Of a DNA stretch of 52,107 bases, positions 1-47,432 are shown one piece after another. Within the stretch, counting starts at the first letter, position 1, and the number at the start of each line of letters is the position of its first letter. The translations under genes were made by a program, and so were the position numbers. The DNA lies in the NCBI GenBank assembly GCA_017427545.1, contig JAFRSO010000054.1:1-52107 (forward strand), in the 5' to 3' direction. The notes beneath the pieces are model-generated. The model saw only the letters and a list, made by a program, of their open reading frames with translations. It ran no database searches and had not been told where the DNA came from. The stretch is from Selenomonadaceae bacterium (lineage in GTDB: Bacteria > Bacillota > Negativicutes > Selenomonadales > Selenomonadaceae).

Positions 1-260
1 GTGCTATACTCTCGACAGTTCTTTGAAAAGTTGGGATATGCGGTTGGTAACTCGTGAGCGTTGTTACCGTAAAATCCTGAGCGCAGTAAAGATATGCAGG
101 AAGTTCCACCTGACACGGAAACCTGTATGTGTACCCGTACGTTAGCGGGGAATTCAAGCCTGTGGAGCGTCAAAAAAACGTTAGTAGCCTCGGCCAAAAC
201 GGACGTGTCGAAGCAGGAATGGGACATAAAAGTTTACAACTTTTTATAAGTTCTCAGTAA
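1..260 (+). mobile_element. Possible 3' remnant of an IS200/IS605 TnpB locus
   Basis: No intact gene is present before cpaF. All three forward frames carry stops, but frame 1 near 160-249 reads like a TnpB C-terminal tail (…SAKTDVSKQEW…), and frame 3 from 114 is open for 48 codons to a stop at 258-260 with a P-V-E-R-Q stretch. A perfect 6-bp hairpin (GGTAAC 46-51 with GTTACC 63-68) fits the structured 3' end of such elements, where the guide-like omega RNA overlaps the gene end. The window starts inside the feature, so the body of a transposon gene could lie upstream. This is a pattern-memory call; it could instead be an unrelated 5' leader of the Tad operon. Confidence 0.35.
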
Positions 261-45178: not shown

Positions 45179-45285
45179 GAGCCGCCCGTTTTCAGTTAGG
45201 AGTTAGGAGTGAGGAGTTAGGAGTTTTTAAACTTGTTCCTTTTTCCTTATTCCTTTTTCCTTAACAGCGGCTCTGATTTTTTTTT
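45179..45285 (+). terminator. Terminator whose loop is filled by a heptad repeat
   Basis: Stem GAGCCGC (45179-45185) / GCGGCTC (45267-45273) followed by nine T (45277-45285). The ~80 bases between the arms consist almost wholly of ten heptads, which can pair among themselves to form an extended hairpin. Confidence 0.65.
45194..45263. repeat. Ten-heptad repeat within a terminator
   Basis: agttagg x2, agtgagg, agttagg, agttttt, aaacttg, ttccttt, ttcctta, ttccttt, ttcctta: 70 bases in one phase, the second half roughly complementary to the first. Confidence 0.88.
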
Positions 45286-45297
45286 GCAAAGCTTCAA

Positions 45298-46326
45298 TCA
45301 ATAGAGGTTGTGTTTAACTCTGTCATGCTCTTCTGATTTTTTAGCGTCATTCCAACGGTCTGTTGTGCCGACAAGATACTTTAATGGACTGTTTCTTGCC
45401 CCATAGGGCGGACACGTGCAGTCTCTACAATTGGTAAATTAGCTGGATACTCAACGTCATAACCGTAAACGTGCGAACGGTGCTTTTTGAATTTGGCGCG
45501 GACATGTTCAACAGTCTTGCTCATTTGTTCAGCCAACCAACGAGCGGCAGCGGTTGCGGATTCAAAATTATGCCTTTCGTCGCCCTTAATCAGTGCAAGC
45601 GGTTTCATTCTCCGACGTCGAGCCGCTTCAAGATTCGCCGAACCAATTTTGCTAATGCCGCTGTGGTCACGATTTTTCATTTGTTCACTCTTAGTCACGT
45701 AGCGTAAATTTGTCCAGTGATTATTTAAGCTGTTGCGGTCAATGTGATCTATCTCATAACCTTCAGGCTTAGCTCCAAGCCAGCATTCGGCAACTACGCG
45801 AGCTATGGGTATTCGTTGAACTTTACCTTTGCGGCAAATAAAAGTGAAACAATATCCTGCGGGCGAATGATGATAATCGATGATAATTTTATTTTGCTTC
45901 TTCGACTTAACGTTGCGGAAAATCCGCCCGTCTTCGCTGACTTCGTATAAAAATTTCAGTGACGGTATCTTTCTAAATACTTTACCAACCTCGCGATCAG
46001 TCATATTAATGACCTCCCCCGAATCATGTACGTTATTTTTTTACTTCTGACCTCTATCGAAGTCCGGCGTACATAACGGCATTTCTGCCACAGTGTCACT
46101 TTGCGGGCTATCCTTAATCGGTACCCGTTATTCTTCTGATACGTTCAAATTTCTCACCGCGAGCAGTATAACTCACGTCAACCAAACCGTCGTCACAAAG
46201 CTTAACGGAAATGGTTTTGACAGGTACCGAGACGCGTCCGCGAACATAAGCGACGTAGTTGGCAGCCTCGTCACGGGTGGCGTCATCAATGCCGACAAAA
46301 TTTACCTTAACGCCGTCAACAATCAT
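45298..46326 (-). CDS. NrdD-like (glycyl-radical C-terminal type) small protein, split by a group I intron
   Basis: Spliced product of 94 residues: exon 1 46326-46123 (68 codons) and exon 2 45378-45298 (26 codons plus TGA). Exon 1 ends …KFERIRRITG and exon 2 starts YLVGTTDRWNDAKKSEEHDRVKH, which together match the C-terminal pattern of anaerobic ribonucleotide reductase (E. coli NrdD …RRTCGYLGS…AGKQEEVKRRVKH). Unspliced reading ends two codons into the insert at TAA. ATG 46326 follows AGGAAGTGATTATC. It may be an accessory or spare-part glycyl-radical protein; catalytic cysteines of a full NrdD are absent. Overlaps nothing but abuts mscS upstream. Confidence 0.75.
45379..46122 (-). mobile_element. 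Group I intron carrying an HNH homing endonuclease gene
   Basis: 744 nt, phase 0. The 5' exon ends in U (ACGGGU) and the intron ends in G. Exon CGGGU pairs with GCCCG 14 nt inside the intron, giving P1 with the conserved U.G at the splice site. Near the 3' end are AGAGACUG and AAGAAACAGUCC, forming P7 (GACUG/CAGUC) as in R and S elements, GCCC-UAU-GGGGC as P8, and GUCCG able to pair with CGGAC near the 5' end as P3. The exons join perfectly in frame. Subclass not determined. Confidence 0.82.
45381..46004 (-). CDS. Intron-encoded HNH homing endonuclease (NUMOD4-HNH)
   Basis: 207 residues. N-terminal NUMOD4-like segment (YEVSEDGRIFRNVKS), HNH core (EIDHIDRNSLNNHWTNLRYVTKSEQMKNR), then a basic C-terminal region with a NUMOD/helix-turn-helix-type unit (FESATAAARWLAEQM). 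ATG 46004 follows GGGGGAGGTCATTA, a very strong ribosome site. The gene ends two bases before the 3' splice site, so its last ~15 codons (…MGQETVH) also form the R/S core and P7/P8 of the intron. Such enzymes cut intron-less alleles and promote intron homing. Confidence 0.85.
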   Translation of the reverse strand: MTDREVGKVFRKIPSLKFLYEVSEDGRIFRNVKSKKQNKIIIDYHHSPAGYCFTFICRKGKVQRIPIARVVAECWLGAKPEGYEIDHIDRNSLNNHWTNLRYVTKSEQMKNRDHSGISKIGSANLEAARRRRMKPLALIKGDERHNFESATAAARWLAEQMSKTVEHVRAKFKKHRSHVYGYDVEYPANLPIVETARVRPMGQETVH

Positions 46327-46331
46327 GATAA

Positions 46332-47432
46332 TCACTTCCTTAAATTGATTTTTGTATCATCAGGCAAATCGAGCGTGCGAATCGGGAACGGAATATTAAT
46401 GCCCTCTTCGCGATAACGCTTCGTGATTGCCTTGATGAATTCATGCTTCAAAATATATTGATTGGTGAAAGTTTGGACGTGCATAACCGCGTTGAAGTCA
46501 ATCGACGAATCGTTGAATTTTTGATAGCGGACGACGGGTGCGAGAGGATTTCTGTCGACGCCTTCCGAATCGATTTTGGGTTGATAGCCGTCAATCTTCG
46601 TCTGAAGTTCTGTGGCAACCTCAACCGTCACGCGCTCGACAAGCTCCAAGTCACTTTCATAGCCCACTCCGATTGGTACGACCAAAACTATATCGTCGTG
46701 CGGCTGGGAAAAATTCGTCGTGACTGCCCCGGCAATGACTTTGTTCGGAATGACGACGACGCTGCTTTTTGACGCCGGCATAACCGTAATATATCGCCAG
46801 TTAATGTCGGTAACGCGCCCTTCGTCGCCCGACGAAAGTCTTATGTAATCATTAACGCGAATTTGTTTTGAAATAATAATTTGCAATCCCGAAAAAATAT
46901 TTTCTAAAGTTTCCTTCAAGCCGAGACCAACTGCCATACCGCCGACACCCATTGCCGCCATAATCGGCGCGATTGAGATATTGAAGTAGTCGAGGATAAT
47001 CAATGCGCCCGAAGCGTAAATTGCCACTCGGAAAATCGTATCGAGCAGAGTTGATTGCGTCATGTCGCTTGAGTCGGAAAATTTCAGCCTGATAAATCCC
47101 GACAGCGTCCGCTCACAAACTCGCGTTATTGAAAATACGATCATTGCGAACAGGACATATGAAAAAATTTTTTCGAGACCGGCGGGCATATCGGAAGTCG
47201 TGACGCTCCAATAAAGACCGATTACCAAGCACAAGGAAATTGGTACGCCCTTCATTGCGCGGAAGAAAATTTCCATGAGTTCCGATTCGCTGGCCTTAAC
47301 GTGACGTGCAAGTTTTTTCGTCAACAGCTGGTTGAGTGCGATTCCGACGAACAATGAAAATGCCAAAATGCACGCCGGCACGATGAGCTTTTGTCCCAAT
47401 GCCCACCAATCAATATGTTGAAAATATTCCAA
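46332..47432 (-). CDS. mscS: Small-conductance mechanosensitive channel, MscS family
   Basis: 366-residue inner-membrane channel that opens on hypo-osmotic shock. Four to five N-terminal helices end with the pore helix (AAMGVGGMAVGLGLKETLENIFSGLQI), followed by the beta domain (VNDYIRLSSGDEGRVTDINWRYITV, VVIPNKVI) and a C-terminal alpha/beta domain. Start ATG 47432 with GGGGAGGAAT upstream on the minus strand. The NrdD-like gene begins just after its stop and is probably cotranscribed. Confidence 0.92.
   Translation of the reverse strand: MEYFQHIDWWALGQKLIVPACILAFSLFVGIALNQLLTKKLARHVKASESELMEIFFRAMKGVPISLCLVIGLYWSVTTSDMPAGLEKIFSYVLFAMIVFSITRVCERTLSGFIRLKFSDSSDMTQSTLLDTIFRVAIYASGALIILDYFNISIAPIMAAMGVGGMAVGLGLKETLENIFSGLQIIISKQIRVNDYIRLSSGDEGRVTDINWRYITVMPASKSSVVVIPNKVIAGAVTTNFSQPHDDIVLVVPIGVGYESDLELVERVTVEVATELQTKIDGYQPKIDSEGVDRNPLAPVVRYQKFNDSSIDFNAVMHVQTFTNQYILKHEFIKAITKRYREEGINIPFPIRTLDLPDDTKINLRK

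Follow-up and report, generated by a model that had tools for sequence, protein, structure and literature searches.

The 744-nt insert at positions 45,379 to 46,122 (minus strand) of the window, by which we mean the whole 52,107-nt stretch of DNA analysed here, is best explained as a group I core that carries an HNH gene, that is predicted to be self-splicing, and that interrupts a small stand-alone gene which likely provides in trans the radical segment missing from the class III RNR protein NrdD; we place the probability of this reading at about 0.82. The precursor RNA would fold, an exogenous G would attack after the GGU, and ligation of the exons would yield RRITG-YLVGT, while alleles that have no intron would be nicked or cut by the HNH protein and would then receive a copy of the intron. 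The 94-aa product would be activated by NrdG and, docked into the NrdD barrel, would form a separate subunit. We also lean, by a small measure, towards a broader proposal: that the sole RNR of the genus is a two-piece class III enzyme whose radical glycine lies on an exchangeable small protein, made in many members only after group I or group II splicing, and that in some genomes an intein sits at the radical cysteine as well, so that both radical residues would be held by selfish elements.

The window corresponds to contig C42 in a 2.44-Mb MAG (G000) whose completeness is 83%, which means that a second, intact copy of the gene or a further RNR could have escaped the data for this genome; the closest named records are Quinella and Selenomonadaceae MAGs, chiefly ruminant. 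Exon 1 (46,123 to 46,326, minus strand), assigned from its reading frame and its relatives, comprises 68 codons of a stand-alone glycyl-radical-domain gene (MIVDG...RRITG) and closes on GGT, the codon for the predicted radical glycine as aligned with Gly711 of P. copri NrdD. The frame then runs ACC GAT TAA, an in-frame stop, and reading resumes at 45,378 with TAT CTT GTC; the coordinates agree with the earlier note, which had the minus-strand gene stop two codons beyond RRITG and resume 744 nt later. Exon 2 (45,298 to 45,378, minus strand; YLVGTTDRWNDAKKSEEHDRVKHNLY), with its TGA stop at 45,298 to 45,300, matches the extreme C-terminus of NrdD (NF011292, E 3.4e-7). The insert, whose last base is G, splits a 94-codon gene precisely after the Gly codon, between RRITG and YLVG, and the joined coding length is 285 nt, as had been calculated. 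An MscS-like gene lies upstream (46,332 to 47,432, minus strand), and it serves as the marker of the orthologous locus, with a homologue in the flank of 52 of the 60 loci tested. The host had been described as a chromosomal NrdD-like gene; chromosomal and NrdD-like it is, but it is a stand-alone glycyl-radical-domain gene and not a full NrdD.

That the insert is a group I intron is well supported by a comparison of 28 distinct HNH-bearing introns of 663 to 756 nt (type 1 hereafter), 18 from bacterial genomes and 10 from IMG/VR contigs. Exact duplicates were removed, L059 and L060 were left out as being of the same type and at the same site as L058, and 15 loci in which only one half was paired were likewise set aside. 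Pairing was judged against shuffled controls (2000 for P3 and 1000 for each other helix), with the relatedness among the sequences retained. All coordinates that follow are on the minus strand. P3, formed by GACAC (46,093 to 46,097) and GUGUC (45,411 to 45,415), makes 138 of 140 pairs, against a shuffled mean of 98 and maximum of 114; P4, with its 5' strand at 46,068 to 46,077 and its partner at 46,024 to 46,032, makes 270 of 276 (shuffle maximum 217); the P5 hairpin GACUUC/GAGGUC (46,049 to 46,064) makes 156 of 166 (maximum 139); and the P8 hairpin GCCC/GGGC (45,398 to 45,409) makes 109 of 112 (maximum 104). P6 (UUC/GAG, 46,014 to 46,023), a hairpin of only 3 bp, reaches 79 of 83 pairs (maximum 76), and P7, in which G(A)GACUG with its bulged A (45,419 to 45,425) faces CAGUCC (45,386 to 45,391), is nearly invariant and kept in all 28 (168 of 168 pairs; maximum 167). 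P1, in which the guide GCCCG (46,104 to 46,108) pairs with exon CGGGU (46,123 to 46,127) and places a U.G at the splice site, makes 122 of 139 pairs (maximum 118). Together these elements give a P7 with a bulged base, a P3/P7 pseudoknot, P8, a P4-P5-P6 domain, P1 and a terminal G, and the group I assignment of the earlier note is upheld by the covariation of P1, P3, P4, P5 and P8 over the 28 introns and by the presence of P7 in every one.

A hairpin (GGCAGAAAUGCC, 46,078 to 46,089) lies between P3 and P4, and all 28 type 1 introns have a hairpin at this place; no P2 was seen in them. The HNH ORF (45,381 to 46,004; 207 aa; Pfam HNH_3, E 1.1e-12) follows 118 nt of structured RNA and spans P7, the 3' strand of P3 and P8, the overlap with the 3' catalytic core that had been pointed out before. 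The complementarities proposed earlier for P1, P7 and P8 are present in the window and kept among relatives. The one proposed for P3, CGGAC/GUCCG, is also present in the window, but across the 28 relatives only 89 of 140 pairs form and just 4 sequences have the whole helix, and we have replaced it with the covarying GACAC/GUGUC.

The P1 guide tracks the third bases of the exon Thr and Gly codons, with ACA answered by GCCUG and ACU by GCCAG; in L014 and L016 the Gly codon is GGC, the guide has A, and a C.A pair replaces the U.G. The fifth P1 pair fails in several type 1 introns, a one-base shift of P1 is needed in L014, L016 and L056, and a free search for the P1 register is not unique, giving other sites too in six type 1 introns. 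Where the protein frame alone fixes the ends, G is the last base in all 21 introns, and the base before the intron is U in 19 and C in 2, in good agreement with the expected exon-terminal U and intron-terminal G. In the phage nrdD genes the splice point was read one base later, to give a U at the exon end and a G at the intron end; the ends of the seven introns so set were placed by rule and are excluded as support for the ends. The insertion falls at the identical codon boundary in all 18 bacterial type 1 introns. Self-splicing itself is predicted from these features.

The Rfam group I model RF00028, proposed earlier as a check whose failure would refute the intron, gave no match for the window insert, and there was no Rfam group I match in 15 relatives, eight of type 1 and seven of type 2 (the second kind of intron described below). 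The intron of phage SPO1, taken as a control and having a related HNH protein, scores 25.6 bits against the Rfam threshold of 50; a known intron thus also falls below the threshold, and the missing match is not informative. That intron is called self-splicing in the title of a paper cited by a review (PMC3984707, as far as its available text goes). An Rfam scan, it appears, overlooks introns of such a kind.

We turn to what the small gene is for. In the window genus the main NrdD stops right after its Zn site (in L112 the protein ends with CPHCHRKEIETGTFHIARLKPNDK and a stop). Among the matches listed, the NrdD match ends at profile position 549 to 553 of 581 in at least 56 of 66 genomes, with true stop codons in the loci that were read, and the small gene matches about positions 550 to 581. 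An NrdD that reaches position 581 was found, again among the matches listed, in six of the 66 genus genomes (G015, G016, G021, G064, G066 and G067); G007 has a full-length NrdD interrupted by a type 2 intron, and G065 a broken one. Outside the genus, G044 and G048 also combine a short NrdD with the small gene. The L112 core aligns with residues 5 to 716 of 8p23, including GCRTR (Cys416), and so holds the radical cysteine and the Zn-site core, while the C-terminal glycyl-radical loop is absent from this chain and lies on the separate small gene. The C-terminus of the small family aligns with the radical domain of P. copri NrdD, with Gly711 matching the G of RITG when a four-residue offset is allowed; in that enzyme, according to the available portion of its description, Gly711 carries the radical and faces Cys416 (PMC11226230). 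In the window genome an NrdG gene (G000:C54:9272-9703; 152.4 bits against a cut-off of 126.1) and the nrdD core are about 1.2 kb apart, and no class I or class II RNR catalytic (large) subunit was found in any of the 66 genomes, by a search whose control was detected in 11 of 14.

The small family numbers 5681 proteins, and the best 120 of the 5681 are mostly unnamed; the bare first exon has apparently been deposited as a protein, in the form of entries of 68 to 78 aa without a Pfam domain. In the structural model of the small protein the radical loop has a pLDDT below 50, so the structure does not support docking, and a fold search with this model returned nothing better than E 0.15. On sequence grounds, we consider it likely that the small gene functions as the radical subunit, and the class III RNR of the genus is probably made from two genes, the one with the radical glycine being a hot spot at which three putatively self-splicing kinds of intron have inserted. 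The radical cysteine is similarly affected in two NrdD cores (L249 in G071 and L250 in G007), where a long intein-like insertion starts with Cys and ends with SGN before CRTR; long NrdD frames were also noted in G010, G015, G016, G017, G031, G032, G064, G074, G082 and G088. G071, which is 94% complete, has a type 2 copy of the small gene only, together with the NrdD core bearing this insertion (GC...NCRTR).

The intron might be real and the small protein merely a repair part for damaged NrdD, dispensable as a subunit, much as GrcA/YfiD is a repair part for pyruvate formate-lyase. Other genomes of the same class (for example G037, G038, G040, G043, G045, G046 and G052) do possess both a full-length NrdD and the small gene, and stand-alone copies occur on some IMG/VR contigs. 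We nonetheless consider this explanation rather unlikely, for in the window genus, as in G044 and G048, the main NrdD stops short of the radical loop, and where it does so the small part is not optional unless another NrdD exists, an uninterrupted one having been found in six of 66 genomes.

The distribution of the gene bears on whether the interrupted copies are alive. The 94-aa product has a match in 56 of 60 related genomes searched and in 62 of 66 genus genomes, and uninterrupted, full-length, stop-free 94-residue proteins occur in relatives (among them L018 to L024, at 87 to 95% identity), and empty alleles with the joined RRITG-YLVGT, for which the earlier note had advised looking in orthologues, are common. 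In a census of the 62 genus genomes with the gene, 27 have intact copies only and 35 at least one interrupted copy; an intact copy is present in 35, a type 1 copy in 18, a type 2 copy in 20 and a group II copy in three. Insertions of this sort had been described as rare, but in this genus they are common. No intact copy was found in 27 of the 62, and 21 of these are also without a full-length NrdD (one of the 21, G032, has a second, partial NrdD); copies were assigned by hand, some intact calls rest on an unbroken match, and some type 2 copies end at a contig edge. Judged by their flanks, empty and occupied alleles share one locus: beside mscS there are 46 distinct alleles, 22 intact, 14 of type 1 and 10 of type 2, six duplicates having been removed. 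Each of the 41 distinct group I introns found in the small gene brings an in-frame stop within 15 codons of exon 1, and with such early stops and with lengths in all three phases, only exact removal would restore the frame. Should our reading be right, cells lacking an intact copy would need RNA splicing in order to make dNTPs.

Over the 20 codons of exon 2, pN/pS is 0.23 for type 1 (n=20), 0.16 for type 2 (n=21) and 0.27 for intact alleles (n=31), and within the genus it is 0.19 (n=18), 0.16 (n=21) and 0.26 (n=28), respectively, all of these being rough values since synonymous sites are near saturation. The within-genus set drops five sequences: L086 and L087 (full-length NrdD, other families), L151 and two IMG/VR type 1 introns. 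Such purifying selection is as expected if exon 2 were still translated after splicing.

These observations weigh on the idea that a free HNH cassette has turned the gene into a pseudogene, with no splicing and a small protein that is a dispensable paralogue. An in-frame stop follows exon 1, Rfam is silent, the genus has paralogues and decayed copies (L077 and L157, for example, have an internal deletion), and parts of the core are gone from the type 2 copies L046 and L073. At the same time, a dead gene sits poorly with the purifying selection on exon 2, with the single codon boundary used by all 18 bacterial type 1 introns, with the covariation of core helices outside the ORF, and with the 21 genomes, G032 and its partial NrdD among them, that lack both an intact copy and a full-length NrdD; we regard it as improbable. 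Removal of the insert as an intein, or its passage by frameshift or bypass, is very improbable indeed, for although intein-like insertions are known in the NrdD core of the genus, Pfam finds HNH_3 in the ORF but no intein domain, the early stops recur in 41 of 41 copies, and structured RNA precedes the ORF.

With the insert taken as a group I intron, its spread can be considered. The HNH protein matches PDB 1u3e, a solved HNH homing endonuclease that we take to be I-HmuI, at E 2.3e-11, and it also aligns with ORFs of SPO1-group phages. Phage nrdD genes carry an HNH-type intron at the same place. Identities cross between intron and host: L007 is 76% identical to the window in HNH but 51% in exon 1, and L014 is 52% identical in HNH but 90% in exon 1, which argues that introns have passed from one allele, paralogue or phage gene to another; that the HNH protein drives homing is an inference. 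In L014 and L050 the HNH frame extends into exon 2. The purine-rich, ribosome-binding-like stretch 5' of the HNH start codon falls within P6, and endonucleases of T4 have ribosome-binding sites hidden in hairpins, in the accessible part of one account (PMC2988022). Two phage arrangements may be recorded here. On the L052 phage contig, an NrdD frame without the radical loop is followed by a GIY-YIG-like ORF of 134 aa and then by a stand-alone radical-domain gene with a type 1 intron; in L057, a relative of the HNH ORF lies directly after the uninterrupted 3' part of a phage nrdD, outside the gene.

Two further kinds of intron occupy the site. Type 2 comprises 21 distinct ORF-less inserts of 203 to 393 nt at the same point as type 1, also with a group I core. 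In 19 of the 21 (L046 and L073 left out), pairs number 68 of 76 in P1 (shuffle maximum 66), 140 of 152 in P2 (130), 64 of 76 in P4 (62), 51 of 57 in P6 (47), 95 of 95 in P7.1 (80), 76 of 76 in P8 (75) and 75 of 76 in P9.1 (72); P3, P5 and the P7 core are almost invariant, and the P9 count is reached in 59 of 1000 shuffles, so that these give no covariation support. The outer P7 pair is A-U with a bulged C in 12, G-C with a bulged A in eight and absent in one. The picture is complicated by the flanking base: of the 21 inserts, 13 are preceded by T, five by C and three by G, with C in the guide in the G cases; a G before the insert with a guide C is unusual for group I introns. Relatives of the type 2 3' part adjoin an annotated tape-measure gene in a Streptococcus phage and a terminase gene in a crAss-like phage, and one copy (L175, G025:C138) lies in an unannotated frame that appears to be tail tape-measure-like, so type 2 introns also occur outside RNR genes; another, as noted, lies in the full-length nrdD of G007. 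L046 and L073, both from G034, are two type 2 copies with different internal deletions of core pieces, through decay or assembly error. Group II introns lie at nearly the same place in L148, L072, L153 and L154 (from genomes G062, G026 and G011), with scores of 160.7 and 55.1 bits to RF02004 (threshold 34.5) and of 64.4 and 63.6 bits to RF00029 (threshold 40); three of the four end at contig edges or show one half only.

Among known systems, the closest likeness is to the SPO1 DNA polymerase intron, which is also of group I and whose annotated ORF, gp31.2, encodes a homing endonuclease (presumably I-HmuI) belonging to the same HNH family. It differs in that its host is a phage DNA polymerase gene and its HNH protein is 28.7% identical to that of the window, and in that the window intron has no P2 and bears a hairpin between P3 and P4. 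Group I introns of phage nrdD, in T4 (with I-TevII) and in Jug phages, have anaerobic RNR genes as hosts, as here; the available text reports metatranscriptome reads in support of splicing for the Jug phages (PMC12363816), and a phage survey, in its accessible portion, gives nrdD as the commonest split RNR gene (PMC3653736). The T4 nrdD intron is described with a GIY-YIG nuclease, in contrast to the HNH of the window intron, and the T4 and Jug hosts are phage nrdD genes, whereas the host here is a chromosomal radical-domain gene. Bacterial group I introns in nrdE, nrdF, recA and flagellin genes, whose similarity to phage introns has been noted (PMC3984707), resemble the window intron in having chromosomal protein-coding hosts that include RNR genes, although the RNR hosts named in the available text of that review are nrdE and nrdF of Bacillus and cyanobacteria, and nrdD is not among them. 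An RNR cut into two genes, both needed, is described for Pseudomonas aeruginosa as NrdJa and NrdJb (PMC4520616, in the part available); that enzyme is class II, whereas the one proposed here would be class III with the radical glycine on the small part.

A literature search returned, in the portions of text it covered, nothing on a split class III RNR and nothing on the RNR or the introns of Quinella. If our reading is correct, this would be a cellular class III RNR with its glycyl radical on a separate subunit, the sole described cellular split RNR that we found in those portions being class II, and it would make testable the loading of a glycyl radical on one chain for use by another as the normal state, beyond repair. 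The small region, found in four states (empty, two group I types and group II), also offers a natural series for how introns settle in an active-site codon and for the movement of introns between phage and host nrdD genes.

Some minor features of the loci deserve mention. L077 (G000:C49) and L157 (G029:C34) are paralogue remnants that lack the stretch between RERV and VKH, and with it the radical loop. Just 3' of the window gene, at 45,180 to 45,275, lies a purine-rich/pyrimidine-rich near-palindrome (AGGAAAAAGGAATAAGG... ACTCCTAACTCC), and similar short repeats occur in the P8 loop of the type 2 intron L133. At the far end of the window, positions 159 to 219 (plus strand) match the RAGATH-18 RNA at 65.1 bits, against a threshold of 44.9.
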